DNA of 64,000 nt from Lentisphaerota bacterium (lineage in GTDB: Bacteria > Verrucomicrobiota > Lentisphaeria > Victivallales > Victivallaceae), in the NCBI GenBank assembly GCA_015061575.1, contig SUWF01000008.1, positions 1-64,000 of the forward strand. The letters are read 5' to 3'. The translations under genes and the position numbers were made by a program. Under the pieces are notes generated by a model. The model did not search any database and was not told the origin of the DNA. It saw only the letters and a program-made list of their open reading frames with translations. Shown in pieces: positions 7,694-45,568 of the stretch (its first letter is position 1; every line of letters begins with the position of its first letter).

Positions 7694-10324
7694 TCATTTG
7701 CCGTAGTAGGCGGCCAGATACAACTCCTTGATTTCCGAAATCAATGGATAACGCGGGTTGGCGCCCGTGCATTGATCATCGTAGGCTTTTACGCACAATT
7801 CATCCAGCTGCGCCAGGAAGGTAGCTTCGGTGACGCCTTTGCTGTCCAGATACGGCTTCATTGCTGCCGGAACATCCAGCTGCTTTTTGAGCGCTTCGAT
7901 CTTGTCGATGAGCTTGCTGACCAATTCATCGTCGGTTTTGCCGGTGATGCCCACATAGCGTGCCACTTGTGCATAATCCTGCTTGGCGTGCGGAGCATGA
8001 TATTGCGGAAAGGCCGCTTGCTTGGTCATGCAGTCAACAGCATTGTAGCGGATGATGTGACTGATCAGGAACGCATTCGCCAGACCGTGCGGAACGTGGT
8101 ACATGCCGCCCAGTTTGTGCGCCATGCTGTGGCACAAGCCCAAGAAGGCATTGGCAAATGCCATCCCGGCCATAGCCGAAGCATTGAACATGTGTTCACG
8201 GGCCGGTTCATCCATGGGGCCGTTTTCGTAACATTGCGGAAGATTTTCAAAGATCAGCCGGGTCGCTTCGTTGGCCAGAGCGTTGCAGTAGTCGCTCTGC
8301 ATGCACGATACCCGGGCTTCCAGCGCATGGGTCAGCGCATCCAAACCGGATACGGCGGTCAGGCCCTTGGGCATTTTCATGATCAGTTCCGTATCGATGA
8401 TCGCCATGTTGGGAGTCAACGCGTAGTCCGCCAGCGGAAATTTCTGCTGGGTGACTTCATCGGTGATCACGGCAAACGGCGTGACTTCCGAGCCGGTACC
8501 GGCGGTGGTCGGGATTGCTACCATCATGGCTTTGCTGCCCAGATCGGGCAGGCGCACGATACGTTTTCTTATATCCATAAACCGGGCGGCCACATCTTCA
8601 AATTTGATTTCCGGCTGTTCATACATCAGCCACATGATCTTGGCTGCATCCATGGGCGAGCCGCCGCCGACGGCGATGATGACATCGGCTTCAAAGCTCT
8701 TGAGCTGTTCCAAGCCTTTTTTTGCCAACTGGATAGTCGGATCCGGTGCCACGTCGGCAAAGACATGGGTTTGGATGTTCATAGCGGTCAACTTTTCCAG
8801 TATCGGAGTAAGGATGCCGCTGCCGGCCAGGAACTTATCGGTAACAATAAAAGCCTTCTTTTTACCGGCCAGATCGCCCAGCGCAGTACTCAGGCAGCCG
8901 TATTTGAAATATACTTTTTGAGGAACTCGGAACCAGAGCATGTTTTCTCTCCGTTTGGCGATTGACTTGATGTTGAGCAAATTGGCAGGGCCGACATTTT
9001 CGGATACATAATTGCCGCCCCAGGAACCGCAGCCCAGCGTCAGCGACGGGGTCAATGCAAAATTGTAGAGGTCGCCGATAGCACCATGCGACGACGGTGA
9101 ATTGATCAATACCCGACTGGCTTTGACTTCGTGACCGAATTCACGGATGCGCTGTTCATTTTGAGTATTGGTATAAAGCACAGCTGTGTGTCCGAGGCCG
9201 CCGTATTCCAGCAATGCTTTGGCATTGGCCAGCGCCTGATTGTAATCATCTGCGCAGTAGAGAGCCAGCGTGGGCGAGAGTTTTTCCCGCGAAAAGGCTT
9301 CTTCCAAACCAACTTTGCTGACCTCGGCGATCAATACTTTGGTATCGTCCGGAACCGTGATGCCAGCCATTTGGGCGATGGCTTTGGCGGATTGGCCAAC
9401 GATCTTGCTGTTCAGCTTGCCATCGATCTGGATGACTGAGGATACGGCGGCGGCTTCTTTTTTGTTAAGTATATAGCCGCCGCGTCTGGCAAATTCTTTT
9501 TTGACCGCATCATAAATACTCTTGACCGCCGTAACTGACTGTTCGGAAGCGCAGATCATGCCGTTGTCAAACGTTTTGCTCAACAGCACGGAGTTGACAG
9601 CCATTACGCAGTCGCAGCTTTCATCCATCACCACCGGGGTGTTGCCGGGGCCGACCCCGACCGCCGGGGTACCGCTGGAATAAGCGGCTTTGACCATGCC
9701 GGGACCGCCGGTGGCCAGAATCAACGATATATCTTTATGCGACATAAGATAGCCGCTTTTAGCAACTGTAGGTTCTTCGATCCAGCCGATGATGTCAGCC
9801 GGAGCGCCGGCGGCGACTGCTGCATCCAAAACAATTTTGGCGGCCAGATTGGTACATTTTTTGGCCCGGGGATGCGGACTGAAAACGATCGCATTGCGGG
9901 TCTTGAGGGCAATAAGTGCTTTGAAAATAGCCGTGGAAGTCGGGTTGGTCGTCGGAACGATACCGGCAATGACGCCCCGGGGCTCGGCTACTTTGATCAT
10001 GCCGCTGGCATCGTCAGTTTCGATGATACCGCAGGTTTTGGTATTGGCAAATTTGTTGTAGATGTATTCAGAGGCATAATGATTTTTGATGATTTTATCT
10101 TCCACCACCCCCATGGCGGTTTCTTCCACGGCCATTTGGGCGAGCATTATGCGCTGGTTGCAGGCGGCCAAAGCTGCTGCCTTGAAAATTTTGTCTACCT
10201 GTTCCTGGGAAAAGTTTCCATAGATCGCCTGAGCTGCTTTAGCTTTGGCTACAATGGCATCAATTTCCTGGATTTCCGCTGCCGCTTCAGCGGCCGCAGG
10301 TACGGGGTCATCTTTTTTCTCCAT
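7694..10324 (-). CDS. adhE: Bifunctional acetaldehyde-CoA/alcohol dehydrogenase
   Basis: An 876-residue fusion, the usual AdhE length. The N-terminal half is an acylating aldehyde dehydrogenase: GIVPTTNPTSTAIFKAL and the catalytic cysteine in DNGMICASEQS, near residue 255. The C-terminal half is an iron-dependent alcohol dehydrogenase: GGGSPMDAAK near 565 and the metal-binding histidines in GLCHSMAHKLGGMYHVPHG. The enzyme reduces acetyl-CoA through acetaldehyde to ethanol with two NADH, typically forming spirosomes in fermenting anaerobes. A good Shine-Dalgarno (AAGGAG) precedes ATG 10324. The first 20 residues are an Ala/Glu-rich tail not present in all homologues. It is divergent from serC across a region with repeated dyads, suggesting redox or growth-phase control. 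Confidence 0.97.
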   Translation of the reverse strand: MEKKDDPVPAAAEAAAEIQEIDAIVAKAKAAQAIYGNFSQEQVDKIFKAAALAACNQRIMLAQMAVEETAMGVVEDKIIKNHYASEYIYNKFANTKTCGIIETDDASGMIKVAEPRGVIAGIVPTTNPTSTAIFKALIALKTRNAIVFSPHPRAKKCTNLAAKIVLDAAVAAGAPADIIGWIEEPTVAKSGYLMSHKDISLILATGGPGMVKAAYSSGTPAVGVGPGNTPVVMDESCDCVMAVNSVLLSKTFDNGMICASEQSVTAVKSIYDAVKKEFARRGGYILNKKEAAAVSSVIQIDGKLNSKIVGQSAKAIAQMAGITVPDDTKVLIAEVSKVGLEEAFSREKLSPTLALYCADDYNQALANAKALLEYGGLGHTAVLYTNTQNEQRIREFGHEVKASRVLINSPSSHGAIGDLYNFALTPSLTLGCGSWGGNYVSENVGPANLLNIKSIAKRRENMLWFRVPQKVYFKYGCLSTALGDLAGKKKAFIVTDKFLAGSGILTPILEKLTAMNIQTHVFADVAPDPTIQLAKKGLEQLKSFEADVIIAVGGGSPMDAAKIMWLMYEQPEIKFEDVAARFMDIRKRIVRLPDLGSKAMMVAIPTTAGTGSEVTPFAVITDEVTQQKFPLADYALTPNMAIIDTELIMKMPKGLTAVSGLDALTHALEARVSCMQSDYCNALANEATRLIFENLPQCYENGPMDEPAREHMFNASAMAGMAFANAFLGLCHSMAHKLGGMYHVPHGLANAFLISHIIRYNAVDCMTKQAAFPQYHAPHAKQDYAQVARYVGITGKTDDELVSKLIDKIEALKKQLDVPAAMKPYLDSKGVTEATFLAQLDELCVKAYDDQCTGANPRYPLISEIKELYLAAYYGK

Positions 10325-11759: not shown

Positions 11760-12671
11760 ATGCTTAAAACTTTACTCCGGCCGGCGATGATTTTTATCCC
11801 TCTGGGGTTGGGAATCATCTGCCCACAGGCGGCAGGGATGAATTTTTTGATCCGTTATTTGATCATGGTAATGCTGATGATGGTCTTTTTGGGGTTGAAT
11901 TTGCGGGAAATGCGTATCCGCAGATCGCATTTTCTGCTCCTGCTGGCCAATTTGCTTATCGGAATAGTCAGCTGGCTGGCGGCATGGGGCATTACCGGCG
12001 ATAAGACTCTGGGCCAGGCGGCGTTTTTTGTGGGCATTACCCCTACGGCAACGGCGGCAGCGGTAGTCATGGCTATGCTCAACGGCAATGTCGGATATGT
12101 TTTGACTGCTTTTATGATCACCAATGTGGGGATCGCTTGCGTGCTGCCGTGTCTGTTGGGATTTGTCTGCGGCAATGTATCTTGGGACTTTATGCTGCGG
12201 GTGCTGGAGTCGCTGGTATTTTTGATGCTCATACCTTATGGTTTGTCGCTGATTATACGCAAGCTCCACCCGGCGGCGGAGCAATGGCCGAAACGTTTTA
12301 AGAATCAAACCTTTTCGCTGTGGTCGTTCAGCTTGTTTATTATTGCGGCGACGGCCGCAGAATTTTTTCAGAAAAATCCGGATGTATCGCTGTGGATCGT
12401 GTTGGAAATTGCGTTTATATCGCTGTTGATCTGCGCAGTGAATTTTACCGTCGGATACTTTTTGGGCGAACGCAAACTGCGGCGGGAAGCCAGTCAGAGT
12501 CTGGGACAGAAAAATACCACCCTTACCATCTATCTGGCTTTGGTCTACGCCGGGCCGTTAGCTTCGCTGGGCGTGATTTTTTATGTTTTATGGCACAACA
12601 GCTACAACGCTTTGCAGATGTTTTGCGAAGACCGCCGTCAGAACCGGAGCGTGGCGCTTCAGCAAAAGTAA
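11760..12671 (+). CDS. SBF/BASS-type (bile acid:sodium symporter-like) membrane transporter
   Basis: A 303-residue, very hydrophobic protein with about nine to ten predicted membrane spans. The segments GITPTATAAAVVMAMLNGNVGY and later NTTLTIYLALVYAGPLASLG resemble the conserved discontinuous helices of the SBF/BASS superfamily, which moves organic anions, pantoate or arsenite with sodium or protons. The substrate cannot be assigned. Its 3' end overlaps the convergent GntR gene by 13 bp. There is no clear partner. The start ATG 11760 follows a short AAGG-containing spacer. Confidence 0.7.
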   Translation: MLKTLLRPAMIFIPLGLGIICPQAAGMNFLIRYLIMVMLMMVFLGLNLREMRIRRSHFLLLLANLLIGIVSWLAAWGITGDKTLGQAAFFVGITPTATAAAVVMAMLNGNVGYVLTAFMITNVGIACVLPCLLGFVCGNVSWDFMLRVLESLVFLMLIPYGLSLIIRKLHPAAEQWPKRFKNQTFSLWSFSLFIIAATAAEFFQKNPDVSLWIVLEIAFISLLICAVNFTVGYFLGERKLRREASQSLGQKNTTLTIYLALVYAGPLASLGVIFYVLWHNSYNALQMFCEDRRQNRSVALQQK

Positions 12672-13315
12672 TGAGCAAAGTGCAGGTGGACTTTCTCACG
12701 CCAATCCTGCATGGAATCACTGCGCAGCGATTCGACCAGTTCCATGTGATCAAAGTAGGATCGTTCGGCCGCCAAAGCAGCCTGGTTGCTGGTGTGGGCA
12801 AAGAAAGGCTCCAGCAGCAGCTGAAACTGTTCGATCAAAGTGTTGCCGGAAAGCGAAAACAAGCGGCGGTGAAAATCCTGTTCCACCTGCCGGTATTGCT
12901 GCGAAGTTATGTTTGGTGTCTGGAATTTTCCGGCAATTTCAGCCAATTCAGCGATCGCTTCCGGCGTGCGGTTCAAATATATAAGATCCGACAGGCCCAA
13001 TTCGATGACCAGCCGCAGCTGGGCGATCTCTTTTTTAGTCGCTTCATCGAGCAAGTCATAGCAGATAAGCTTTTGCATACCGCAGAAAAGATCCGGCTTT
13101 TTCAGGATCATGCCGCGGCGGCGACGGCTTTCGATGACTCCGGAAGCCTTCAAGCGGCTCAACGCTTCGCGGGTAATGGTACGCGATACTTCCAGCTCGG
13201 ATGCGAGTTCTTCTTCTTTGGGCAACAAATCACCGAACGCATAACCTTTCTGACGTATATAAAGGTAGATGCGTTCTTCAACTTGCTCGGTCAATGTTTT
13301 TTGCTGCTTACTCAT
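12659..13315 (-). CDS. GntR-family regulator, FadR/FCD subfamily
   Basis: A 218-residue regulator. The N-terminal winged helix contains GDLLPKEEELASELEVSRT and ALSRLKASGVIESRRRRGM, the GntR hallmark. The C-terminal all-helical FCD domain contains the metal/ligand-binding pattern D-x3-H (EQDFHRRLF) and a late His (HLHFAH). FCD regulators usually respond to carboxylic or sugar acids. It is divergent from the DapA/NanA-family lyase with a dyad in between, so it probably represses that gene in the absence of substrate. Confidence 0.9.
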   Translation of the reverse strand: MSKQQKTLTEQVEERIYLYIRQKGYAFGDLLPKEEELASELEVSRTITREALSRLKASGVIESRRRRGMILKKPDLFCGMQKLICYDLLDEATKKEIAQLRLVIELGLSDLIYLNRTPEAIAELAEIAGKFQTPNITSQQYRQVEQDFHRRLFSLSGNTLIEQFQLLLEPFFAHTSNQAALAAERSYFDHMELVESLRSDSMQDWREKVHLHFAHYFC

Positions 13316-13483: not shown

Positions 13484-14413
13484 ATGAAGTTCGGTATGGA
13501 TGTTTTCAAGGGTGCCTGGTCGGCCATGTCGACCCCGTTGACCAATGATGGCAAAGTGGACAGCAATGCGTTGTGCAAGCTGGTCGAACACCAGATCAAG
13601 CTGGGGATCAAAGGTCTGTTTTTGGGCGGCACAGCCGGGGAAGGGCCGTTTTTGCCCGATCGTGAACGGCAGCGGCTGGCTGAGTTGACTGTGCGCTATG
13701 TGAATGGCCGTATTCCAGTGGCCATGCAGATCACCGATAACTCGGCGGAACGGATGATCGAAAATCTGGATCGTTATCAGGATTGCGGTATTGATATTGC
13801 GGTGATCGCGCCGCCGTTTTTCCAGCTCAACGCAGCCAAGGGAAATTTTATTTATGATTTGTACAAGCAGGTGATTGATGCCAGTCAGATTCCAGTGGGC
13901 ATTTACAACCGCGGCAAATTTTCCAGCGTTTATGTGGAGCCGGAAGTGCTGGGCAAGCTGCTGGATGATCCCAAGGTCATTCTGTGCAAAGATTCGGCCA
14001 GTATGCCGGAATTTGTTGAAGCGATCATGGCGGCCAAAAAACGCCGCAATAATGAATTGGCCGTACTGTGCGGCGATGAATTTGATTGCGTGACCTACCT
14101 TAAAGCCGGTTATGACGGCGTGTTGTTCGGCGGCGGCTGCTTTAACGGTGCTTACGCAGCTGAAATGTGCCGTCTGGCTGCTGAAGGCAAATATGACGAA
14201 GCTCAGAAAATACAGGATCATCTGGCCGAAGTCATGTTCAAAGTGTTCGGCGGCAAGAGTATCGAATGCTGGATGGCCGGGCAGAAAGAACTCATGGTGC
14301 GCTTGAATGTATTCAATACAGCCAAGACCTATTTGAACTATCAGCTCAACGATGCCTGCTCCAAGGCGATCGATGAAGTGATCCGGGACGAAAAAGCCTG
14401 GTTGATCAAGTAA
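13484..14413 (+). CDS. Dihydrodipicolinate synthase/N-acetylneuraminate lyase family aldolase
   Basis: A 309-residue TIM-barrel aldolase. It has the substrate carboxylate-binding motif GGTAGEG (residues 48-54), the Schiff-base lysine Lys169 in LCKDS and the catalytic Tyr141 in GIYNR. In DapA and NanA the Tyr motif is normally YN-x-P; here the proline position differs. The divergent FCD-type GntR regulator points to catabolism of a 2-keto sugar acid or sialic acid-like compound rather than lysine synthesis. AAAGGAG precedes ATG 13484. Three small Cys-rich genes follow on the same strand. Confidence 0.88.
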   Translation: MKFGMDVFKGAWSAMSTPLTNDGKVDSNALCKLVEHQIKLGIKGLFLGGTAGEGPFLPDRERQRLAELTVRYVNGRIPVAMQITDNSAERMIENLDRYQDCGIDIAVIAPPFFQLNAAKGNFIYDLYKQVIDASQIPVGIYNRGKFSSVYVEPEVLGKLLDDPKVILCKDSASMPEFVEAIMAAKKRRNNELAVLCGDEFDCVTYLKAGYDGVLFGGGCFNGAYAAEMCRLAAEGKYDEAQKIQDHLAEVMFKVFGGKSIECWMAGQKELMVRLNVFNTAKTYLNYQLNDACSKAIDEVIRDEKAWLIK

Positions 14414-14479: not shown

Positions 14480-14983
14480 ATGATTCCCAGCGATCATTTT
14501 GTCCGGTTTTATAACGAAATTTTCAAATATCTGCAAAAGCAGGGCCCGGAAGCAATTGCAGAGTATTATCAAACTATAAGCAAACACCAGGAAACCCATT
14601 GTTGGGAAATTTTTACTCAAAAAGGTATCCCGGGCATGAAAGAATACTGGGATAACATACGCAAAGAGGAAAATTGTGACGGGGAAGTTCTGGAATGCAG
14701 TGAAACTGTCTATCGAAGCATCATGAACAACTGTCCGAGTTTATCCAAAGTAGTGGATAATGATGCCGGAGCTTCCGATATATATTGCCGTCACTGTCCG
14801 GGCTGGGTCATGCCGCTGTTGACCAAATGCGGATATTACTGCGTAGAGGATCTGGTGGGGCTGGATATTCCGCGCTGCCAGCTTTCGATATTCAAAAATC
14901 TGGAAGATGCCCGGGCTTACCGGGAAAGAGTTCTGAAGCGTCATCCCGGTAAACCGGAGCTGGTGGAAAGCAACTTTGATTGA
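14480..14983 (+). CDS. Small Cys-rich protein, paralogue A1 (function unknown)
   Basis: A 167-residue soluble protein starting MIPSDHFVRFYNEIFKYLQK; GGGAGA lies before the ATG. It is clearly homologous along its length to the protein at 15586-16083. Blocks shared by both are ENCD, CPSL.KV.DNDAG, DIYC.HCPGWV, YCV.DL.G.DIPRC and KRHP. Seven cysteines are conserved, including the C-x-x-C pair in YC.HCPG, which suggests metal or thiol chemistry. The CP....C.HC...C layout is loosely like ATC-hydrolase-type proteins (L-2-amino-thiazoline-4-carboxylate hydrolase family), but I do not claim membership. No signal peptide or membrane segment. Confidence 0.75.
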   Translation: MIPSDHFVRFYNEIFKYLQKQGPEAIAEYYQTISKHQETHCWEIFTQKGIPGMKEYWDNIRKEENCDGEVLECSETVYRSIMNNCPSLSKVVDNDAGASDIYCRHCPGWVMPLLTKCGYYCVEDLVGLDIPRCQLSIFKNLEDARAYRERVLKRHPGKPELVESNFD

Positions 14984-15039
14984 TAATTAATGCTGATAAA
15001 GAAATAAGTCATTTTTTCCCTGGATGTACGGATCGTGGT

Positions 15040-15068
15040 TTGTAAAATCAATTATCCTGGGTTATAGT
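15040..15068 (+). promoter_or_regulatory. Promoter for the second small-protein pair
   Basis: TTGTAA (15040-15045), 17 nt, TATAGT (15063-15068), about 60 nt before ATG 15129. It would transcribe the genes at 15129 and 15586 separately from the lyase. Confidence 0.5.
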
Positions 15069-15128
15069 AAATAAAATTTCTGTTGCGGAGTATATCCGGC
15101 GGAATGGTTAATTTAGGAGATTTATAGG

Positions 15129-15578
15129 ATGAAACCTGAAGAAATGCGTTATTGTTCAACCGGAGAAGTACATTTGGACTTTCATGGCAGTACTTATGTA
15201 GGGTTGAAGTATTTGCTGGATCATTTCGGTATGGAAGCGGTTGATGAAGTTTTAAGCAGTACGGCTGAAAAGGTCTATAAATCGATTTATGAACGTCTGC
15301 AGCGGGGGGATTCTTCGGAGCTTATCTGCCACTGGCGTTACTATCTTGAACGGGAAAAATGCGATTTTACGCTGACCGAAAATCCCGATGGTACAGCAGT
15401 GCTGGAGTTGCGTGAATGTCCGGCGTTGCGTCAGCTGGCCAAAGAAAATATCAATGACCGGCCGCTGATCTGCCACGCTACCGATAAGATGAATCAGGTA
15501 TGGTGCGCCAATTCTCCGTTTGAAATCGTGGTTGAACATTTGGAAAAAGGCTGCCGTCAGACGTTGCGCCGCAAGTGA
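15129..15578 (+). CDS. Small Cys-containing protein B (function unknown)
   Basis: A 149-residue soluble protein with AGGAG before ATG 15129. A helical first half (GLKYLLDHFGMEAVDEVL) is followed by ECPAL, LICHATDKMNQVWC and a late Cys. The CPAL...C-H...C order parallels the CPSL...C-x-HC...C order in the two flanking paralogues, so the three may share a fold despite low identity. The general shape is reminiscent of ATC-hydrolase-like families; this is a weak inference. It sits between the paralogues, 7 nt before the second, whose Shine-Dalgarno overlaps this stop codon. Confidence 0.7.
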   Translation: MKPEEMRYCSTGEVHLDFHGSTYVGLKYLLDHFGMEAVDEVLSSTAEKVYKSIYERLQRGDSSELICHWRYYLEREKCDFTLTENPDGTAVLELRECPALRQLAKENINDRPLICHATDKMNQVWCANSPFEIVVEHLEKGCRQTLRRK

Positions 15579-15585
15579 GGTTATA

Positions 15586-16083
15586 ATGATTCCCAGTGAC
15601 CATTTTGTAAAATTTTACAGCGAAGTATTCAAATATCTGCAAAAGCAGGGCCCGGAGGCGATCAAGGAATATTACGACACGATCGCCGAGCACCAGAAGA
15701 CTCACTGCCTGAAACAATTTGAAGAAAAAAGTCTGGCGGGCATGAAGGAATATTGGGATCGCATCATTATTGAAGAAAATTGTGATGCCGATGCTCTGCT
15801 TACTGACAAAAGTTACACCTTCTATATGCACGGTTGTCCGAGTTTGGGCAAAGTTCTGGATAATGATGCCGGAGTCTGCGATATTTATTGCGATCACTGC
15901 CCGGGGTGGGTATTGCCGGTTATGAGTGCCAGCAACCACTACTGCGTATATGATCTGATCGGTAAAGATATACCGCGCTGCATACTTAAGGCTTTTAAAA
16001 ACCGCTGCGATGCAGAAGTTTATCTGGAAAAAGTGAAAAAACGCCACCCGGAACATCCCGAGTTGGTAAAGTGCAATTTCTGA
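15586..16083 (+). CDS. Small Cys-rich protein, paralogue A2 (function unknown)
   Basis: A 165-residue paralogue of the protein at 14480-14983. The start is ATG 15586 (MIPSDHFVKF), which aligns exactly with the paralogue's start and has GTGAGG upstream; a longer frame from 15520 reads through the previous gene and is not used. It keeps all seven shared cysteines and adds Cys in DAGVCDIYC and KNRCDAEVY. It is translationally close to gene B. A duplication giving the order A-B-A is the simplest reading. Confidence 0.75.
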   Translation: MIPSDHFVKFYSEVFKYLQKQGPEAIKEYYDTIAEHQKTHCLKQFEEKSLAGMKEYWDRIIIEENCDADALLTDKSYTFYMHGCPSLGKVLDNDAGVCDIYCDHCPGWVLPVMSASNHYCVYDLIGKDIPRCILKAFKNRCDAEVYLEKVKKRHPEHPELVKCNF

Positions 16084-16157: not shown

Positions 16158-17033
16158 TTAAACTGCGGTTTTGCGCAGTTTTTTGATCAGGATGCTGACG
16201 GCAAAGACTATGCAGTTGAGCATCACGATCAATGCGCCGGAAGCGGTGTTGATTTTTTCGTGTACCGAAAGCAGCAGCCCCAATATACCGCACAGCAAGC
16301 CGCATAAACTTGCGTACCAGACCATCATTCCCGCTTTAGTCGTCAGATTTCTGGCCGCCGCCGCCGGTACGACCAGCAGCGCACTGACCAGCAGCACCCC
16401 CACGGCTTTGACGCAGACGATGACGATCAACGCCAGCAATGATATGTATAAATAATTATACCATGCACTTTTGATACGGTGCGCCCGGGCCAGATCTTCG
16501 TCGATGGCGATCAGCAGCATCCGGTTGCCGTTACAAATCATAAAGAGCGTGTGGAGTATGAACAGGATCATCAATAATACAATATCCTGATAATCGATCA
16601 ATAACACATCGCCAAAAATAAAACGCTGTGCCAGATGCGATAATTCATGATTGTGAGCGGTCAGCAGCAATCCTCCGGAAACAATAAAAGCAAAGAGTAT
16701 GCCTATAGCCGTATCGCTGGCGATTTCGCTGGAGCGTTTGAGCCACATTACGCCCAACCCGATAAGCATGGCCAGCAATGGCATTGACCACGCCGGGCCT
16801 TGTGAACCGAGCAATATCAATCCCAAAGCCGCTCCGGCAAAGGCACTGTGCCCGATGGTATCCGCAAAAAACGCCATGCGGAAATTCACTACCTGAACTC
16901 CCGCCGCTGCCGCCAGCGGGGTTATCAGCAGAACGGCCAGCAACGCCATTTGCATAAAGTGCAGCTCCATGCACTCCAGCGGTATTTTACTTAAAAGCCA
17001 GCAGATGTTATCGATTATTTTTTCGAGCAGCAT
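16158..17033 (-). CDS. ABC-3 family metal transporter permease (ZnuB-like)
   Basis: A 291-residue permease with about eight membrane spans. The stretch FRMAFFADTIGHSAFAGAALG is the diagnostic ABC-3 family motif (F-x-D...GHS-x-F-x-G). Members import zinc, manganese or iron with a ZnuC-type ATPase and ZnuA-type binding protein, which are encoded just upstream on the same strand. Start ATG 17033 has AAGGAA at a good distance; a GTG two codons earlier is possible. It overlaps the ATPase gene by 19 bp, showing translational coupling. This is the last gene of a five- or six-gene minus-strand operon. Confidence 0.93.
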   Translation of the reverse strand: MLLEKIIDNICWLLSKIPLECMELHFMQMALLAVLLITPLAAAAGVQVVNFRMAFFADTIGHSAFAGAALGLILLGSQGPAWSMPLLAMLIGLGVMWLKRSSEIASDTAIGILFAFIVSGGLLLTAHNHELSHLAQRFIFGDVLLIDYQDIVLLMILFILHTLFMICNGNRMLLIAIDEDLARAHRIKSAWYNYLYISLLALIVIVCVKAVGVLLVSALLVVPAAAARNLTTKAGMMVWYASLCGLLCGILGLLLSVHEKINTASGALIVMLNCIVFAVSILIKKLRKTAV

Positions 17034-17818
17034 ATACACAGTTCCTTATGTTCCGGCAGATCGAATTTAGCTGTATGCAGACCGAATGCGGCCCGCAGAT
17101 TTTCTTCGGTAAGTACTTCGCTGGGGTGGCCTTGTGCCAAAACATGATTTTTCAGGATTATTACATGCGCAGCGTGGGCGGCCACGGTGGCCAGATCGTG
17201 ACTGATCATGATTTGGGTGAAGTGCCGCTCTTTGCGGAATTTATCCAGCAAACCGCAGCAGAGTTTTTCGCCGGAAAAATCCACCCCGGAGGCCGGTTCG
17301 TCCAGAATCACCACTTCCGGCTCCTGCAGCAGTGCCATCGCTAAAAGTATGCGCTGCAATTCGCCGCCGGAAAGCTTGCCCAGCTGCCGATCGGCCAAAT
17401 GTCCGCACTCCACAGCCTGCAGCATTTCCTGACAGCGGGTTTTTATGGAGCGGTCGATCCCCAAAAAGAGCGGCCGGCAACTGATGGATGCGGCCAGAAA
17501 TTCCAGACTGGTCAACGGCATATTGCGGTCAAACTGCAGCTTTTGCGGCACATATCCCCAGCGGGGAGGGCGCAGCGAAAAAGTTCCGTTGCTTCCGCCG
17601 AACCAGACTTTGCCGGTATGAGGTATATCGCCCAGCAACGCTTTGGCCAGCGTGCTTTTGCCAGCTCCGTTGGGGCCGACGATCGCCGTGCAGACCCCCC
17701 GGGGGATAAAGGCGTTGATGTGCGACAGGATATTGACGCCGTTGAGCGTTACAGAAATATCTTCGAGCCGGAGTGCTGTATGCTCTGCGCAGCAGCAGTT
17801 GTGGATATTGTGGAGCAT
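17015..17818 (-). CDS. Metal ABC transporter ATP-binding protein (ZnuC-like)
   Basis: A 267-residue ABC ATPase: Walker A GPNGAGKST (48-56), Q-loop in YVPQK, signature LSGGELQR, Walker B VVILDEP and H-loop ISHD. It energises the ABC-3 permease encoded downstream. Cys-rich ends are unusual: NCCCAEH at residues 7-13 and CICCSKK at the C-terminus, possibly metal-sensing or metal-binding. It starts on a TAATG overlap with the binding-protein gene. Confidence 0.93.
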   Translation of the reverse strand: MLHNIHNCCCAEHTALRLEDISVTLNGVNILSHINAFIPRGVCTAIVGPNGAGKSTLAKALLGDIPHTGKVWFGGSNGTFSLRPPRWGYVPQKLQFDRNMPLTSLEFLAASISCRPLFLGIDRSIKTRCQEMLQAVECGHLADRQLGKLSGGELQRILLAMALLQEPEVVILDEPASGVDFSGEKLCCGLLDKFRKERHFTQIMISHDLATVAAHAAHVIILKNHVLAQGHPSEVLTEENLRAAFGLHTAKFDLPEHKELCICCSKK

Positions 17819-18645
17819 TATCGCATGACACTTTCCAATTTATAAATGTTTTGGTTCATAACTTTTATGTAATGATCACCCGCCGGTTCGGCCGGGCCGG
17901 ATACGAGCATATCCAGCTCTACGACAGGCAATTTTTCAGTTCGGATAAAAATTTTACAGGCCGGGTCGTGAGCCTCGTCACACCAAAGTGCCACGGCTTG
18001 CAGCTGACGGGATTTTTGAAGCAAAGAAATCAGCGTTCCGGGGGACAGTAAATCGGCATTTTCGTGTTTCAGCAGCAATTCTTTGCCGCCAGATAAATTC
18101 AGCAGATTGCGGAAAACGCCATGCTGCAGCACTACATATTTTTGCCGCAACGGCAGCTGCCGTACCCGTTGGATAAGTTTTTCCAGCTGAGGCAGAAACT
18201 TGTGCAGATTGTTTTGAAAGTGCTGCTGATGCTCCGGCAGCAGCAAACTGAGTTCTCCGGCGATTTTCTGCACCATGAGTTTGGCAGTATCGGGACTGGC
18301 AAAAGTGTGCGGATCAATGGCTGGAACTTCGGCTTTGATCAATTTGATGCGGTCGTTTATTTTCAATGCCGTTGCAATCAAGTGGTCATCCACGCCCTGA
18401 CCGTTGGCTACTAAAATGACCGCTTCTTGCCGCAGTTTCAGCAAGTCGCCGGGGCGGGGCGCAGCGGAGTGCGCGCAACCGCCGCCGGGCGGCATGAGCA
18501 AATCCACGCTGCAGCCGGGAACATTTTCTGCCACCGTGCGGGTCAGCAGCCAGACCGGATAAGTTGTGCAGATAATCTCTGTTGCCGGCAGTTTGACCGC
18601 ACTCAGCAGCAGCAATAAACTGCAAAGGATGTTTTTTACGCTCAT
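17818..18645 (-). CDS. Periplasmic metal-binding protein (ZnuA-like)
   Basis: A 275-residue cluster A-I binding protein with an N-terminal signal peptide (hydrophobic core LCSLLLLLSAV). Candidate metal ligands are His in GGGCAHSAAP, His in IDPHTF and His in LQHGVF, the positions used by ZnuA/PsaA. There is no His-rich loop of the kind common in zinc-specific ZnuA, and a Cys sits beside the first ligand, so the metal is uncertain (Zn, Mn or Fe). The gene overlaps the upstream reductase gene by 4 bp (ATGA) and the downstream ATPase by 1 bp. Confidence 0.88.
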   Translation of the reverse strand: MSVKNILCSLLLLLSAVKLPATEIICTTYPVWLLTRTVAENVPGCSVDLLMPPGGGCAHSAAPRPGDLLKLRQEAVILVANGQGVDDHLIATALKINDRIKLIKAEVPAIDPHTFASPDTAKLMVQKIAGELSLLLPEHQQHFQNNLHKFLPQLEKLIQRVRQLPLRQKYVVLQHGVFRNLLNLSGGKELLLKHENADLLSPGTLISLLQKSRQLQAVALWCDEAHDPACKIFIRTEKLPVVELDMLVSGPAEPAGDHYIKVMNQNIYKLESVMR

Positions 18646-27958: not shown

Positions 27959-28771
27959 ATGAAGAAAATAATCAGTTTTTTGGTATTAGCAATATTGCTG
28001 ACCGGGTGTAAACCGGCAGTAACGACGCCAGTCAAAGCAGAAAATTTGCGGATACTGTCGCTGGTAACTTGTGCCGACTATATTATGACCGAACTTGGGA
28101 CAAAGGATAAAATCGTTGCCATTGACCGCCACGGTCGCTTGCTGGATAGTATGCAGAATGTGCCGGTAACAGTTGCTGGTGGCGTGGTATCCCGGGAAAT
28201 GCTGCGAAAATACCGGATCAATTACGCTATAATCTGGTATTATCAGCGTAATTTGCTGGAATTATTCAATAAAGAGCAGATCCCGGTCATGGTCGTGGAG
28301 CCGGTCAGTTTGACGAATTATCCGGAGTTGGTGCGCAAGTTGGGCGAACTTTGCGGAAAGACGGCAGCTGCGGAAAGCCTGGTGGAACATTTTACCGGAG
28401 CGTTTCCGCCTGCAGCCTCAACTCAGAAGGGCGGTGTGCCGGTTTATATTGAGCTTTATGCGCCGTGGAAAAGTCCTTCTGCCAACGGATATATTGCAGA
28501 GATCATGCAGCGGGCAGGGGGGCAGCTGACGGCGGCAGGTACTCAAGGCGGGACTGTTTCGCCGGAAGTTGTGGCGCTGGCCAGAGTGGAAGTTATATTT
28601 TTTGTGGAAGGCTTCGGCTCAGCAGCCGAAATTGCCGGCCGGGCGGCTTTGCGGAATACTCCGGCAGTCAAAAACAAAAGGATTTTTGCCATACCCCGCA
28701 AGCTGGTTTGCGAAGGGGTGGCACCGGAAGAATTATTGAATTTTTTTAGCAATAAAATAAAGGATAAATAA
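27959..28771 (+). CDS. Lipoprotein ABC substrate-binding protein (BtuF/FepB-like)
   Basis: A 270-residue lipoprotein: signal peptide MKKIISFLVLAILLTGC with the lipobox cysteine at 17. The rest has the two-lobed helical-backbone fold of class III binding proteins (RILSLVTCADYIMTELGTKDKIVAI near the start, SPEVVALARVEVIFF late), used for vitamin B12, heme and siderophores. No cobalamin riboswitch is visible upstream, so the ligand is open. It follows the pseudopilin by 10 nt and is probably cotranscribed with it and with the radical SAM, permease and ATPase genes. Confidence 0.85.
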   Translation: MKKIISFLVLAILLTGCKPAVTTPVKAENLRILSLVTCADYIMTELGTKDKIVAIDRHGRLLDSMQNVPVTVAGGVVSREMLRKYRINYAIIWYYQRNLLELFNKEQIPVMVVEPVSLTNYPELVRKLGELCGKTAAAESLVEHFTGAFPPAASTQKGGVPVYIELYAPWKSPSANGYIAEIMQRAGGQLTAAGTQGGTVSPEVVALARVEVIFFVEGFGSAAEIAGRAALRNTPAVKNKRIFAIPRKLVCEGVAPEELLNFFSNKIKDK

Positions 28772-28774
28772 ACC

Positions 28775-29518
28775 ATGGCTTTTCATCGAATAACCTATCA
28801 CGAGCAATATAAATTTGCTACTTTGCACAACTACGGCTGTACTTTCCGCTGTTCATTTTGCAGTTACAAACTCCGCAGCGGAGCCAACGGGCGGCCGGGA
28901 TTTGCTTATCCGGCTCCCAAACAATATTTGAGTGTGGAAGAAATCAAGAAAGTTCTGCTGGAGCTGCGCCCCGAAAAGGTCTATTTTATGGGCGGCGAAC
29001 CTACCGTAGCCAAAGAGTTGCCGGAGATACTCAAGTTCGCCAAAGAGGAACTTCATGCCATGACTAAACTCGGCCACACCAACGGCAGTATGCTGCCATT
29101 GGAGAATTTGGACGGAGCCAACGTGGGATTCAAGGCCTGGAGCCAAGAGCTGCATACAAAGATCACCGGCCGACCGCAGGAATTGATTTACGGTAATTTT
29201 GAGAAAGCCTTCCAAAGCGGGATGCAGCTGGCCGCCAATATGGTCTATGTGCCGGGTTTGGTGGAAAAAACTGAATTTGAAGGATGTGTAAAGTTTTTAA
29301 GTCAGCTTTCCAGCGATATACCGTTCCATATCATGGGTTACATCCCGGTGCCGGGCGAACCGTGGAGAAGACCCACTGAGGAGGAGATGAACGATATTAC
29401 TGATTTGTGCCGGAAGTATTTGAAAAATGTGGCGGCATCGCATTTAAGCACCGAAGAGGCTTTGGATCTGAGCTGCCGGGATGACCGCTTCAGGGTCAAG
29501 ACGGTTGCCGGGGCTTAA
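28775..29518 (+). CDS. Radical SAM enzyme
   Basis: A 247-residue protein with the radical SAM cysteine triad C-x3-C-x2-C in GCTFRCSFCSY (about residues 16-24) and the SAM-binding GGE motif in YFMGGEPTV. It is short, with no SPASM or B12-binding extension, resembling activase-type radical SAM proteins. The gene starts 4 nt after the binding-protein stop and ends 6 nt before the permease start, so it is embedded in the ABC importer operon. This suggests it modifies the imported ligand or needs it. I do not recognise a named family. Confidence 0.85.
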   Translation: MAFHRITYHEQYKFATLHNYGCTFRCSFCSYKLRSGANGRPGFAYPAPKQYLSVEEIKKVLLELRPEKVYFMGGEPTVAKELPEILKFAKEELHAMTKLGHTNGSMLPLENLDGANVGFKAWSQELHTKITGRPQELIYGNFEKAFQSGMQLAANMVYVPGLVEKTEFEGCVKFLSQLSSDIPFHIMGYIPVPGEPWRRPTEEEMNDITDLCRKYLKNVAASHLSTEEALDLSCRDDRFRVKTVAGA

Positions 29519-29524
29519 TAGCTG

Positions 29525-30520
29525 ATGAGTAAGTTGGAAAAAGTAAAATTTCCGGCCGCTGTTCTGCTGCTGCTTTTAACTGCACTCGGGGCGTTATGCT
29601 GCTGCGGCGGAGAGCTGTCATGGAAAGATTTTCTGCAGTGCCTGGGTTCCCCAAGTCAGAATGAGGCAGCCGCGGCTGTATTCTGGCAGATACGCCTGCC
29701 GAGGATCGCCGGGGCTGCTGCCGCCGGAGCTTTGCTGGCCGCTGCGGGCTGTACGGTGCAGCTTTTGTTCCGTAATCCGCTGAGTTCGCCGCATGTGCTT
29801 GGCTCGGTGAATACGGCGGCATTGGGCGCTGTAGCGGTGTGGCTGCTGGGCGGCACGACTATGGCCGGAATGCTGCTGGGCAGTACTGCCGGTGCGCTGG
29901 CTTCGCTGTTGCTGCTGCTGTTTATCGGACGGGGATATCAGCAGACCGGTACGCTGCTGCTGGCCGGGATCGCGCTCAATGCTTTTGCGGCGTCGGCCAT
30001 GAGTGGTATATTGTTTATTTCGGGCGAACATCTGGAGGGAATAATTTTCTGGCTGCTGGGCGGGTTCTGGCGGCTGGATTGGCTGCGCAGTGCGATCTTG
30101 CTGGCGGGGGCAGGGGTGGTCATGCTGATCTTGCTGCTGCAGCGGCGGGAAATGAATATGCTTTATCTGGGGGAAAGGGCAGCGGCCGCCGCCGGAGTCA
30201 ATACCCGGCAGGTGATCGCGGTGGCGGTACTGGCCGCGGCGCTGGCTACTGCTTTGGTGGTCGGCAACTGCGGGGTGATCGGTTTTGTGGGACTGCTGAT
30301 ACCGCATATTGCCCGGCGGATTTATGGCGGAGAGTTCCGGAATCATTTGCTGGGGGCGGGGCTGTTGGGCGCTATATTGCTGATTGCTGCTGATTGGGCA
30401 GGACGGTGTTTATTTGCGCCGCTGGAAATGCCCGTGGGGATATTGACATCGCTGATCGGGGCGCCGTTTTTCTTTGTTTTGATCGTTATGCGGCTGAAAA
30501 CTCCGGGAGGACGGCAATGA
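29525..30520 (+). CDS. FecCD-family ABC permease (BtuC-like)
   Basis: A 331-residue permease with about ten spans. FRNPLSSPHVLGSVNTAALGA and GNCGVIGFVGLLIPHIARRIYG are signature FecCD/BtuC segments; the latter includes the loop that contacts the ATPase. Members import siderophores, heme or cobalamin. It overlaps the ATPase gene by 4 bp (ATGA). Confidence 0.93.
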   Translation: MSKLEKVKFPAAVLLLLLTALGALCCCGGELSWKDFLQCLGSPSQNEAAAAVFWQIRLPRIAGAAAAGALLAAAGCTVQLLFRNPLSSPHVLGSVNTAALGAVAVWLLGGTTMAGMLLGSTAGALASLLLLLFIGRGYQQTGTLLLAGIALNAFAASAMSGILFISGEHLEGIIFWLLGGFWRLDWLRSAILLAGAGVVMLILLLQRREMNMLYLGERAAAAAGVNTRQVIAVAVLAAALATALVVGNCGVIGFVGLLIPHIARRIYGGEFRNHLLGAGLLGAILLIAADWAGRCLFAPLEMPVGILTSLIGAPFFFVLIVMRLKTPGGRQ

Positions 30521-31260
30521 GTTTGCAGATAAAAGAGTTATCTTTTGCCTATCATCAAAACCGGCAGCCGGTTTTGCGCAATATATCTTGCACCTTTGAG
30601 CCCGGGCGGTTTTACGGGATTTTCGGCGCCAACGGCAGCGGCAAAAGTTCTTTGCTCAAACTGGCTGCCGGCGAGCTGGATGCTCAAGGCACAGTGGAGT
30701 TGGAAGGCAAAAATATTGCCAGTTTCACTCCCCGGGAAAAAGCGCTGCTGCTGGCGGTATCGGCGCAGGAAAATGAACTTGTATTGCCGTTCAAAGTCCG
30801 GGAATGTATCCGGCTGGGGAGGTATGTTCACGGCGATGACGGCAACGCAATGGTGGAAAAACTTTTGAGCGAGTGGAACGTACGGCATCTGGCGGAACGG
30901 CCGTTTGCGGAGCTCAGCGGCGGCGAACAGCAGCGCATCAAGCTGCTGCGGGTCTTGGCGCAGGATACTTGTTATCTGCTGTTGGATGAACCGGCAGCTT
31001 CGCTGGATTGGAGTCGTCAGCTGGAGCTTTACGAAAAACTTCAACACCTTTCCCATACGGAAAACCGTTGCGTGATCATGGTCTGCCACGATTTATACAT
31101 TGCACCCGGATTTATTGACGAAATGCTGCTGCTGAAAAATGGCGAACTGCTTTACAGCGGCTTGCCGGAAGGCGCTGCTGCGGAACGGGCGGCGGAAGCG
31201 GCTTTTGACCGGGCCGTAAATATCAAACGGCAGGCCCACAGCGTTCAGGTCAGCTGGTAA
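30517..31260 (+). CDS. ABC ATPase of the FecCD-type importer (BtuD/FepC-like)
   Basis: A 247-residue ATPase. The start MSLQIKELSF at 30517 lies on the ATGA overlap; a longer frame from 30394 runs inside the permease gene and is rejected. Walker A is GANGSGKSS, the signature LSGGEQQR, Walker B YLLLDEP and the H-loop VCHD. It powers the upstream permease. Its 3' end overlaps the convergent GntR-fusion regulator gene by 11 bp. Confidence 0.93.
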   Translation: MSLQIKELSFAYHQNRQPVLRNISCTFEPGRFYGIFGANGSGKSSLLKLAAGELDAQGTVELEGKNIASFTPREKALLLAVSAQENELVLPFKVRECIRLGRYVHGDDGNAMVEKLLSEWNVRHLAERPFAELSGGEQQRIKLLRVLAQDTCYLLLDEPAASLDWSRQLELYEKLQHLSHTENRCVIMVCHDLYIAPGFIDEMLLLKNGELLYSGLPEGAAAERAAEAAFDRAVNIKRQAHSVQVSW

Positions 31261-42088: not shown

Positions 42089-45000
42089 ATGGATAACACA
42101 CAAATTGTCAATGGCGGTTTGCAATCAATAAATCAATCGGCGGACAGCCTGGAGTTTGATTTTAATTTGCCTTGGGCTCAAAACGCAGTTGTTATGGCGG
42201 GTGAAAATTATAAGGTGTATACGGGGATCGTATCCCAAAACATAAGTTTGTCCGGAACTTATGTGTGCGGCGAAAATCTGACTTTGCTTAACGGCGGCGG
42301 CTTTTATGGCTCCGGATTTTCGTTTACCCACGCTGGCGCCGACAGTGCTTATATTGACAGTATCGATTCAACAGGTGTGATCCATAACGTTTCCGGGCTG
42401 CAGACCAGAAGCGGATATGCTGCTTTTACAGTGAACGGAACCGCAAGTAATGTAATATTGCGCGGCAGCAGGTTTGACCGTGACCGTGTAATAGTCTATG
42501 CTTCAATGACTTTGCATGGGCAGTCATTTAATACCACGGTTGATTTTGGAGGTATGTTGCTGGTTGGCAGCGGCGGCACCGCCAATAGTACCACGGTAAA
42601 CAGTCTTGGCAGTATGAGTGTTTTTGCCGGCGGCATCGCCAGTAATACCACGGTCAACAATGGCGGTAATTTTTATCTGTATTCCGGCGGCACCGCTGTC
42701 GGTGGAACTGTAAAAGGTACTATTCATGTATCCAGCGGCTCTATAGCCAGCGATATTGTAGTAGATAATGGTTTGGCTTGGTTGGGCAGTGGCGGTAGTG
42801 CTGGCGGCAGTGCGGTAAATCTGCAGCTGAAAAACTATGCCCGAATCTACGGCAATAAAAATGGTAAATTATCAATTACGCATGTAGGAAGCAATGTTGC
42901 TGTTATTGGCAGTATTGACTCTGATGGCGTGATCGGTGATATATCCGGTTTGCAAACCAGCGGATATAATGCTTTTACAGTAAGTGGCACCGCAAGTAAT
43001 GTAATATTGCGCGGCAGCAGGCTTGACCGTGGAATAGCCTATGCTTCAATGACTTTGCATGGGCAGTCATTTAATACCACGGTTGATTTTGGAGGCATGT
43101 TGCTGGTTAGCAGCGGCGGCACCGCCAGTAATACCACGGTCAACAGTCTTGGCAGTATGGGTGTTTTTGCTGGCGGCACCGCCAGTAATATCACGGTCAA
43201 CAATGGCGGTAATTTTTATCTGTATTCCGGCGGAACAGCTGTTGGTGGAACTGTAAAGGGTACTATTCATGTATCCAGCGGCTCTATAGCCAGCGATATT
43301 GTAGTAGATAATGGTTTAGCTTGGTTGGGCAGCGGCGGTAGTGCTGGCGGCAGTGCGGTAAATATGCAGCTGAAAAACTATGCCCGAATCTACGGCAATA
43401 AAAATGGTAAATTATCAATTACGCATGTAGGAAGCAACATTGCCACTATTGGCAGTATTGATTCAGATGGCGTGATCGGTGATATATCCGGTTTGCAAAC
43501 CAGCGGATATAATGTTTTTGCAGTAAGCGGCACCGCAAGCGATGTGACCATAGGAGGTTATATCAGCAGCGGGGCTTCACGAACTACCATGTCTTTGCAT
43601 GGTTCAGCCATTGATACAGTTGTTAACTCGTGTGGACTTTTAATTGTTTCCAGCGGCGGTACCGCCAATAATACCACGGTCAACAGTGTTGGCGGTATGA
43701 GTGTTTTTGCTGGCGGTACCGCCAGTAATACCTCGGTCAACAGAGGTGGAGATTTTTATTTGTATTCCGGCGGCACTGCTGTTGGTGGAACTGTAAAGGG
43801 TATTGTCTTTTTATCCAGCGGTGCTATTGCCAGCGATATTGTATTATCTGGCGGCGTGTTGCAATTAGGCGACAATTCCGTCAATCCGGGTGGCTCGGCT
43901 ACAAACCTGCAGCTGCATAACAGCGCTACAATCAGGGGGTGGAACGGCACTTCTAAAAAAATATTTATTACGCACGTTGGTGGCAGTGTTGCCACTATTG
44001 GCAGTATTGATTCAGATGGCGTGATTGGTGATATCTCCGGTTTGCAAACCAGCGGATATAATGTTTTTGCAGTAAGCGGCACCGCAAGCGATGTGACCAT
44101 AGGTGGTTCTATCAGCAGCAGCAGGGCTTCACGAACTACCATGTCTTTGCATGGTTCAGCCATTGATACAGTTGTTAACTCGTATGGAGTTTTAATTGTT
44201 TCCAGCGGCGGTACTGCCAATAATACCACGGTCAACAGTGGCGGCATTTTAGATGTTGTTGCCGGCGGAACAATCAGCAATACTGCTTTAAGTAGCGGTT
44301 ACGCCAATGTTTACAGCGGAGGACGGATCACCGGGGATTTGAACATTGCTTATGGTGGTCTGGTTTCCGCTTATGCCGGGTCGATCGTTGAGTTTGATAT
44401 CAGTGATCGCACTATGGATGATAAAGCAGTAATCAATAATTTGTCGTTGATTTCCGGTACTCCAACTTATACGATCACCGTTGCCGCTGCTCAGGCCAAT
44501 GGAGTTTATCAGTTGGCGGCCGGTGCTGCCGGATTCAACGGTTCTATCACTATTGGTGATGGCGCTGAAACTTATGGAACGCTTGCGCTGGACAGCACCT
44601 TTAAGTACAACGGCAAGAGTTACACTATCAACAATACCGATGGTAATTTGACGCTGGCGGTCAGCAGTTATACCCAGTTCTTTACCGGCAACTTTAGTGG
44701 TTCGGCCGATATGCTTCTGGCCAGTAAAGACGGCAAGGTTGCGATTTATAGCAACAATGACGTTTGGGCGGAAATGACTCTGGAAGACGGTTGGAACGTT
44801 GTTGGCGTGGCGGATTTTAATGGTGACGGTAAGGCGGATATTTTGCGCAAGCATGTTTCCGGTTTGGTCATTGGAGAAATGTCTGATGGCGCCGGTAACT
44901 TCACTCCGCAAGTCCTTAACTCCGTTGGTTCCGGTTGGGGAATTGAAGGTACTGGCGACTTTAACGGTGACGGGGTAGGGGACGTTTTGATTGCCAACCC

Positions 45001-45568
45001 CACTGCCGCCAGTGATGGCAATCCCGATTATCCCAAAGATCAGCCTCCGATCGGCCTCTTGGGCTATTGGAAGGGCGGCACTGAGTGGACTTTGATCAAC
45101 GGCTATTCGCCTGAATGGAAAATGGTTGCCACTGGTGACTTCAACAACGATGGCAAAACTGATATGCTCTGGCGCAATGAATTTATCGGCGCCGGTGACT
45201 TGACTTATAATGCCTATTGCACTTGGATCGTTGACAACGCCAACGACTGGCGCATGGTCAGCGTTGCCAATCCTGACGAATGGGATTTCCTCTGCAGCGG
45301 CGACTTCAACGCCGATGGCTGCAACGACATCGCCATGATCAATGGTGATGGCGTAGTCGGCATCTGGGGAGTCAATGACGGCTACATGAACAGCTGGAGC
45401 ATCCTCAGCGCCGTAACAGCTGAATGGACTCTCGCCGGAGTCGGCGACTTCAACGGCGACGGCACCGACGACATCGCCTGGTGCAACACCGAATCCGGCT
45501 TAACCGGCTACTGGCAAATTAAGGACAAAACCTTAGATTCCTGGCAAAACATAGCCACGGTAGCTTAA
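42089..45568 (+). CDS. Large repeat protein: AIDA-like beta-helix repeats plus FG-GAP/VCBS calcium repeats
   Basis: A 1159-residue, Gly/Ser/Thr-rich protein. Residues about 100-760 are stacked AIDA-like strand-loop repeats (SSGGTASNTTVNS, VFAGGTASNTTVN), organised as three near-identical units of about 182 residues plus a partial fourth. After a linker, residues about 860-1155 hold five FG-GAP-type calcium motifs: DFNGDGKADI, DFNGDGVGDV, DFNNDGKTDM, DFNADGCNDI and DFNGDGTDDI. This fits a cell-surface or matrix adhesin. No signal peptide, autotransporter barrel, LPXTG or PEP-CTERM signal is visible, so the export route is unknown. GGGGA precedes the ATG. Confidence 0.85.
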   Translation: MDNTQIVNGGLQSINQSADSLEFDFNLPWAQNAVVMAGENYKVYTGIVSQNISLSGTYVCGENLTLLNGGGFYGSGFSFTHAGADSAYIDSIDSTGVIHNVSGLQTRSGYAAFTVNGTASNVILRGSRFDRDRVIVYASMTLHGQSFNTTVDFGGMLLVGSGGTANSTTVNSLGSMSVFAGGIASNTTVNNGGNFYLYSGGTAVGGTVKGTIHVSSGSIASDIVVDNGLAWLGSGGSAGGSAVNLQLKNYARIYGNKNGKLSITHVGSNVAVIGSIDSDGVIGDISGLQTSGYNAFTVSGTASNVILRGSRLDRGIAYASMTLHGQSFNTTVDFGGMLLVSSGGTASNTTVNSLGSMGVFAGGTASNITVNNGGNFYLYSGGTAVGGTVKGTIHVSSGSIASDIVVDNGLAWLGSGGSAGGSAVNMQLKNYARIYGNKNGKLSITHVGSNIATIGSIDSDGVIGDISGLQTSGYNVFAVSGTASDVTIGGYISSGASRTTMSLHGSAIDTVVNSCGLLIVSSGGTANNTTVNSVGGMSVFAGGTASNTSVNRGGDFYLYSGGTAVGGTVKGIVFLSSGAIASDIVLSGGVLQLGDNSVNPGGSATNLQLHNSATIRGWNGTSKKIFITHVGGSVATIGSIDSDGVIGDISGLQTSGYNVFAVSGTASDVTIGGSISSSRASRTTMSLHGSAIDTVVNSYGVLIVSSGGTANNTTVNSGGILDVVAGGTISNTALSSGYANVYSGGRITGDLNIAYGGLVSAYAGSIVEFDISDRTMDDKAVINNLSLISGTPTYTITVAAAQANGVYQLAAGAAGFNGSITIGDGAETYGTLALDSTFKYNGKSYTINNTDGNLTLAVSSYTQFFTGNFSGSADMLLASKDGKVAIYSNNDVWAEMTLEDGWNVVGVADFNGDGKADILRKHVSGLVIGEMSDGAGNFTPQVLNSVGSGWGIEGTGDFNGDGVGDVLIANPTAASDGNPDYPKDQPPIGLLGYWKGGTEWTLINGYSPEWKMVATGDFNNDGKTDMLWRNEFIGAGDLTYNAYCTWIVDNANDWRMVSVANPDEWDFLCSGDFNADGCNDIAMINGDGVVGIWGVNDGYMNSWSILSAVTAEWTLAGVGDFNGDGTDDIAWCNTESGLTGYWQIKDKTLDSWQNIATVA
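42441..44280 (+). repeat. Long in-gene tandem DNA repeats (units of 543-549 bp)
   Basis: Equivalent points (CCGCAAG) recur at 42441, 42990, 43533 and 44082, spacings 549, 543 and 549 bp, all multiples of three. Units 1 and 2 are almost identical at DNA level over long stretches. Such repeats favour recombination that changes protein length. Confidence 0.85.

Follow-up and report, generated by a model that had tools for sequence, protein, structure and literature searches.

What are the small Cys-rich proteins encoded beside an aldolase-like gene in a Lentisphaerota genome, and what might they do? The window analyzed here is a stretch of 64,000 nucleotides (positions 1 to 64,000 of GenBank contig SUWF01000008.1, assembly GCA_015061575.1; contig C62 in our numbering of this 2.86-Mb draft genome). 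A first-pass annotation had described two such proteins, here A1 and A2, with a third, B, between them. We find that the adjacent genes B and A2 represent a widely distributed pair of genes, B-A, which had no prior family assignment and whose predicted place is in a known superfamily. No paper recognisable as describing this nameless family was found among open-licence papers.

Genes A1, B and A2 in the window

The genes of the locus are as follows.

11760..12671, + strand: hydrophobic protein, possible solute transporter of the cluster (PanS, 27.5 bits against a cut-off of 400; no Pfam match)
12659..13315, - strand: divergent GntR/FCD regulator (best NCBIfam match NanR subfamily, 68.1 bits against a cut-off of 260)
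13484..14413, + strand: D, class I aldolase or dehydratase of the DHDPS/NAL superfamily, 66 nt 5' of A1
14480..14983, + strand: A1, extra copy of the putative A subunit, 167 aa
15129..15578, + strand: B, putative partner subunit, 149 aa, with the same predicted fold as A and a probable remote relative of PF14196
15586..16083, + strand: A2, putative A subunit directly 3' of B after a 7-nt gap, 165 aa
15129..16083, + strand: conserved B-A pair

The alignment of A1 with A2 shows 103 identities over 167 positions (62%); the two proteins have exactly seven Cys residues in common (41, 66, 84, 102, 105, 120 and 132 in A2 numbering) and both contain a DIYC-x-HCPGW block. These features had been pointed out before, and the ORFs, their lengths and the Cys residues were all verified in the sequence. 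The parallel CPAL...C-H...C order claimed for the protein between them was also recovered, as C97 (in CPAL), C115-H and C142 of B. When the genome was searched with A1, A1 and A2 were its only matches. For A2, ATG at 15586 is a likelier start than the mechanically assigned TTG at 15520 because relatives begin with M-I-P-S-D.

Distribution and gene order of the B-A pair

At E<=0.01, 60 of 387 genomes of the phylum had a match to A and 53 had one to B, several of these matches being marginal (E >0.001). Loci were collected from 60 regions of the phylum genomes and from 79 named loci; the latter came from a scan of one genome per species for 84,980 species, from which the best 80 of 167 relatives were taken, a set biased toward sequences near A2. 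Removal of 29 loci as duplicates (identical C-terminal 100 residues of the A protein) left 111. Neighbour genes were called as simple longest ORFs, with no trained gene finder, and some may be antisense artefacts. Within the best 80 of 167, the nearest named relatives by A protein were Lentisphaerae metagenome genomes. The pair occurred in Lentisphaeria, Kiritimatiellae, other Verrucomicrobiota, Phycisphaerae, Spirochaetaceae and Alphaproteobacteria, including SAR11. Of 110 genomes sampled from the family that includes one SAR11 genome (L185), 23 had A. No PLSDB plasmid record encoded a relative of A2 or B (tblastn, E<=1e-5).

B lies directly 5' of A nearly everywhere, both in the phylum regions and at the named loci. 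The stop-to-stop distance was <=700 bp in 104/106 cases, and a 4-bp gene overlap was seen in 39 of the 61 pairs examined (with starts trimmed); in this set the value of -993 for L143 comes from an A that precedes B at a locus whose downstream A lies beyond the contig end. The A-B-A order emphasized earlier was seen in the window and in two of its relatives, while a third (L063) shows A-B at a contig end; however, the unit is the B-A pair, with A and B both found at 107/111 deduplicated loci (including the best 80 of 167 named relatives), and the extra A is clade-specific. A-B-A is a local duplication of the A partner; B-A-A order occurs at other loci. In the A tree, A1 of the window stands beside the A2 clade (95/90) and not with the first copies of its relatives. 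At the DNA level, the first 60 bases of A1 and A2 match at 50/60, and later blocks at 34 to 40/60. The tree position and the block identities together suggest that there may have been sequence exchange between the copies, or two rounds of duplication. In the same tree, Alphaproteobacterial sequences are nested among those of Lentisphaeria, which suggests horizontal transfer.

A was found with no detected B at four loci, two on contigs <4.5 kb (L198 and L216) and two in long stretches (L076 and L102). B-less A genes lie at 5697-6938 in L076, 9729-10310 in L102 and 467-955 in L198, the last right behind a fragment of D. These may be solo A proteins, or B may possibly be too diverged for detection.

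Homology of A and B and their conserved residues

Profiles begun from A or from B arrived at the same 127 ORFs. Direct comparison with hhalign gave Prob 96.5 (88.5 on larger alignments), a score reached by 0/150 column shuffles, which bears out the parallel between the two proteins drawn in the first-pass annotation. In addition, pairwise tblastn with A as query picked up, besides A itself, a weak match immediately upstream in 17 of the 23 A-positive genomes of the SAR11 family; for one genome (G388) it was placed inside B through L185. As judged from these profiles, A and B are homologous and represent divergent paralogs.

The conserved positions, all on the + strand, are listed below.

15835-15837: A2 C84, invariant in 68/68 A proteins
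15889-15891: A2 C102, 68/68
15895-15897: A2 H104, 68/68
15898-15900: A2 C105, 68/68
15979-15981: A2 C132, 68/68
15354-15356: B E76, 59/59 B proteins, same column as A E64
15417-15419: B C97, 56/59, same column as A C84
15471-15473: B C115, 49/59, same column as A C102
15552-15554: B C142, 49/59, same column as A C132

The equivalents of the four invariant Cys in A1 are Cys85, 103, 106 and 133. Conservation was counted over 68 A proteins for C41, C66, C84, C102, C105 and C132, with C120 left out. The first-pass annotation had treated the shared Cys residues as invariant; this holds for C84, C102, C105 and C132, but C41 is kept in 42/68 and C66 in 48/68 A proteins. In the joint alignment of A and B, E64, C84, C102 and C132 of A are all present in 68/68, and B proteins lack the first Cys in 3/59, the second in 10/59 and the third in 10/59. 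Aromatic residues F7, Y11, F15 and Y101 of A are invariant too. The three common Cys are spaced by 18 and 27-30 residues in 68/68 A and 45/50 B proteins. Such an invariant Cys pattern would be compatible with a metal site.

Relationship to PF14196 and other families

In single-sequence searches, no match above any Pfam or NCBIfam cut-off was found for A1, B or A2, the matches being at chance level; likewise, A1 had chance-level matches to PDB sequences. PDB profile searches were at chance level as well; two designed repeat proteins had low E-values there, but neither contained a stretch that passed alone. None of the three proteins matched PF14196 (ATC_hydrolase), whose expected reaction is hydrolysis of L-2-amino-thiazoline-4-carboxylate and whose gathering cut-off is 28.1 bits, nor did any protein of the same genome at E<=0.001. 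A direct assignment of A or B as ATC hydrolase was thus rejected, as the Pfam threshold was missed.

A weak signal for PF14196 was nevertheless concentrated in B. The best B homolog matched it with an E-value of 7.4e-4. Of 15 sub-threshold PF14196 places in the 387 phylum genomes, eight were B genes, which sit in 7 of the 53 B-bearing genomes; six further genomes with the pair gave a single match (E 0.09), inside B. At E<=0.1, PF14196 was detected in 17/50 B proteins, the next family in 3/50. For the 68 A proteins, PF14196 was absent among the 15 families listed.

Comparison of alignments was more sensitive. An initial hhalign run, with only four sequences of PF14196, gave low values (Prob 4.3 and 0.3). 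With 19 members, B was aligned with Prob 94.5-95.4 (E 8e-8 to 2e-8) and A with Prob 44 (E 2e-4), in both cases with Cys residues in register. These members comprised 15 from the phylum of a Clostridia genome (L212), used out of 19 PF14196 places found, and 4 from the phylum of the window, which lie above the cut-off. When columns were shuffled, 0/150 shuffles reached each score: the maximum was 22.9, compared to 58.2, 54.1 and 33.8 for the real profiles. Three Cys occur in 18/19 members, mostly spaced by 18-21 and 27-32 residues. These profile data indicate that A and B are remotely related to PF14196, which would be their nearest family in the superfamily. The loose resemblance to ATC-hydrolase-type proteins suggested by the first-pass annotation was therefore right in kind, given the profile match above shuffles and the Cys register, although the Pfam threshold was missed; at the Pfam level no characterised family is matched with confidence, and such a match appears only at the level of the superfamily. 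In a genome of the Clostridia phylum (L222), a PF14196 domain was seen behind a cupin-like domain (assigned by eye) in one reading frame.

Predicted fold

AlphaFold models of A and B had pLDDT values of 93.6 and 95.4. Both consist of helices and four main strands, as in the Bet3/V4R/H-NOX fold (helices on a four-stranded antiparallel sheet). Bet3/TPC6/TRAPP proteins and BcsD were the top structural matches for both models in the VIA comparison (Z up to 8.5 and 8.3), followed at Z ~5 to 6.4 by PoxR and H-NOX for both and by DmpR and MopR for A. A best Z of about 8 is a level that chance can produce, and is supportive rather than decisive. In Foldseek searches the best E-value was 0.0086, with none <=0.001, and designed proteins were among the top matches. 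The A and B frames of L205 and the B frames of L212 look broken, and were omitted, unrepaired, from the structure alignments.

Each of these searches is by itself only suggestive, but the two models, which are independent, agree with each other and with the sequence data, and on this ground A and B very probably belong to the Bet3/V4R/H-NOX/ATC-hydrolase superfamily. The same top structural matches for both models also indicate that the two share a fold, so that the possibility of unrelated folds was not borne out.

Excerpts from the literature allow the superfamily to be described further. Paralogous subunits of the Bet3 fold form homo- or heterodimers, and conserved glycine pairs occur in helices 2 and 5 (PMC2253512, in part). 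In DmpR, zinc is bound by Cys151, Glu172, Cys177 and Cys185 (PMC7264223, in part). A and B have three Cys and an invariant Glu in common, in an order and spacing unlike those of the DmpR zinc site. MetOD1 ties ATC hydrolase, V4R and HNOB together, and its three conserved Cys are mentioned in the same excerpt (PMC5847659). ATC hydrolase itself hydrolyses a thiazoline compound to a carbamyl-cysteine (PMC10821248, as excerpted).

Genomic context

D matched PF00701 with an E-value of 7.7e-41. It passed none of the NCBIfam equivalogs considered: PRK04147 (80.3 bits against 281), nanA (67.2 against 382) and dapA (125.1 against 206). The adjoining sugar-acid lyase of the earlier description is thus a DHDPS-family protein, but one that passes no listed equivalog cut-off, including that for N-acetylneuraminate lyase; identification of D as this lyase is unsupported, as the NAL cut-offs were missed. 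Tyr141 and Lys169, which we take to be the catalytic residues of D-type proteins, were invariant in 38/38 aligned DHDPS neighbours.

Over the 111 loci (including the best 80 of 167 named relatives), the same-strand gene directly 5' of the pair encoded a DHDPS protein in 41 and a NagA-like deacetylase in 22, and the upstream neighbour belonged to no cluster in 31. HpaI-like (17), D-Ser-dehydratase-like (20), RidA (19) and SDR (36) genes were also counted over these loci; the names of these four groups derive from family scans at one SAR11 locus, L185. D-Ser-dehydratase-like PLP enzymes include glucosaminate dehydratases; a literature search on the latter within this group gave nothing useful. 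Alphaproteobacterial clusters contain an HpaI/GarL-like aldolase, a D-Ser-dehydratase/BhcC-like PLP enzyme, RidA, SDRs, MFS and BNR proteins, as established by reading five loci, scanning L185 and then counting clusters. In Verrucomicrobiota, an HpaI-type aldolase gene adjoins B at L115 and L135 (recognised by eye from sequence), kelch mutarotase-like genes adjoin A at L115 and L102, and right 3' of A at the Kiritimatiellae locus L172 are genes for a NAL-like lyase, scoring 201 bits, and for a sodium symporter. While B-A stays, the class of aldolase varies; this suggests a role of B-A along the same substrate line rather than that of a dedicated partner of one aldolase.

Several other features of the window were observed. 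A ZnuB/ZnuC/ZnuA-like metal ABC transporter (16158-18645, - strand; Pfam ABC-3, ABC_tran and ZnuA) is encoded convergently with A2, a tempting juxtaposition if A2 binds metal. An AdhE-like protein of 876 aa (7694-10324, - strand) joins an aldehyde dehydrogenase to an iron alcohol dehydrogenase. A Radical SAM protein (28775-29518) lies inside an iron/corrinoid-type ABC uptake-like cluster (27959-31260, + strand) consisting of a binding protein, a permease and an ATPase, all recognised by eye. A 1159-aa protein (42089-45568, + strand) combines AIDA-type stalk repeats with FG-GAP repeats, an unusual surface architecture.

Possible function of the B-A pair

We propose, at even chances, that B-A is an obligate two-subunit Cys-metal enzyme involved in the breakdown of (acylamino-)sugar acids. 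A and B would be divergent paralogous subunits of one obligate heteromer, most likely a heterodimer of the kind that Bet3-fold proteins form, a suggestion that comes from the gene pairing and the 4-bp overlap. Each chain has an E...CP...C...C constellation, complete in A and there extended by Y-C-x-H-C, which probably holds a metal such as zinc. The complex would act on a small molecule, most likely as a hydrolase that opens or removes a C-N (or C-S/C-O) linkage; this hydrolytic step is proposed by analogy to ATC hydrolase. The substrate might be an N-acylated or otherwise modified sugar acid, cyclic or N-substituted, whose carbon skeleton would then be split by a pyruvate aldolase, of DHDPS type here and of HpaI type in Alphaproteobacteria. 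We infer the heterodimer, the metal and the catalysis, and guess the bond and the substrate. Most characterised members of the superfamily are ligand-binding proteins or parts of complexes and not catalysts, and this counts against an enzymatic role of B-A.

An unlikely alternative is a non-catalytic, V4R-like ligand-binding or sensor heterodimer, which would serve the neighbouring aldolase or some other enzyme encoded in the cluster as a regulator or chaperone. Small-ligand binding and signalling are known for V4R, H-NOX and DmpR/PoxR/MopR domains (PMC2253512 and PMC7264223, both in part), V4R/H-NOX-type domains appear among the structural matches, and the invariant aromatic residues of A would suit such a role. 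However, the fold fills both A (165 aa) and B (149 aa) with no DNA-binding or output domain, and the clusters have separate GntR or AraC regulators. The switch of the aldolase between DHDPS and HpaI types while B-A persists argues against a dedicated aldolase partner, and the invariant Cys, His and Glu resemble a metal or active site more than a purely hydrophobic pocket. It is very improbable, though the Cys4/Cys3-type arrangement and the structural role of Bet3 proteins (PMC2253512, in part) are in its favour, that the Cys residues bind zinc for structural reasons only and that A-B serves in structure or assembly; the tight tie to catabolic operons in several phyla, the kinship with a family named for an enzyme (PF14196) and the invariant Glu and His beside the Cys suggest more than structure.

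B-A might also be specific to sialic-acid (nonulosonate) use, for instance by removing a modification before a NanA-like lyase acts. This is attractive but not established, and we regard it as quite unlikely. The lyase and symporter right after A at L172 fit it, as do BNR sialidase-like, kelch mutarotase-like (L115 and L102) and NagA-like deacetylase genes at other loci, and A is present in 13/34 genomes with NAL-like genes compared to 60/387 overall (odds ratio 4, kinship ignored). However, the NAL cut-off was passed by 0/387 genomes, although an E. coli control passes it; the DHDPS neighbours scanned (window, L094 and L107) are closer to dapA than to NAL, with both cut-offs missed; and the Alphaproteobacterial clusters read carry HpaI aldolase and PLP dehydratase-like genes and no nan operon.

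The proposed Cys-metal enzyme on a sugar-acid route has a broader form, which we hold tentatively and at somewhat less than even chances: B-A would found a new class of two-subunit Cys-metal enzymes built from two Bet3/V4R-fold paralogs, acting at an undescribed step of acylamino-sugar or nonulosonic-acid breakdown common to gut Lentisphaeria and marine SAR11. The superfamily has chiefly been associated with the sensing of gases and phenols and with vesicle tethering. Were B-A an enzyme, the superfamily would gain a catalytic heteromer, and the pair would mark a sugar-acid breakdown route in the 23/110 sampled genomes of the SAR11 family of L185. What had been an unassigned Cys-rich cluster is now a defined, widespread two-gene family for which there is a predicted fold, a possible metal site and a catabolic gene context, and genes of many genomes that had no family assignment become testable.

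Comparison with known systems

The closest comparison is with ATC hydrolases of PF14196, in which CP, C and C occur in the same order and with nearly the same spacing as in A and B. In contrast to these, A and B form a tandem pair of divergent paralogs in a sugar-acid gene neighbourhood, and the second Cys of A is followed by a further invariant H-C. The MetOD1 domain of archaeal signalling proteins, likened here by its description in part of PMC5847659, has three conserved Cys as in A and B, but is a methanogen domain. V4R domains of the phenol sensors DmpR, PoxR and MopR resemble the predicted fold of A and B and, in DmpR, provide an example of a Cys/Glu metal site in the superfamily; however, Cys spacing in DmpR is 26 and 8, compared to 18 and 27-30 in A and B, and A and B lack the attached AAA+ or DNA-binding domain of DmpR-type sensors. 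Finally, the TRAPP subunits Bet3, Trs33 and Trs31 are among the best structural matches for both models, although Bet3 functions in eukaryotic vesicle tethering and sequence identity in these structural matches is ~10%.
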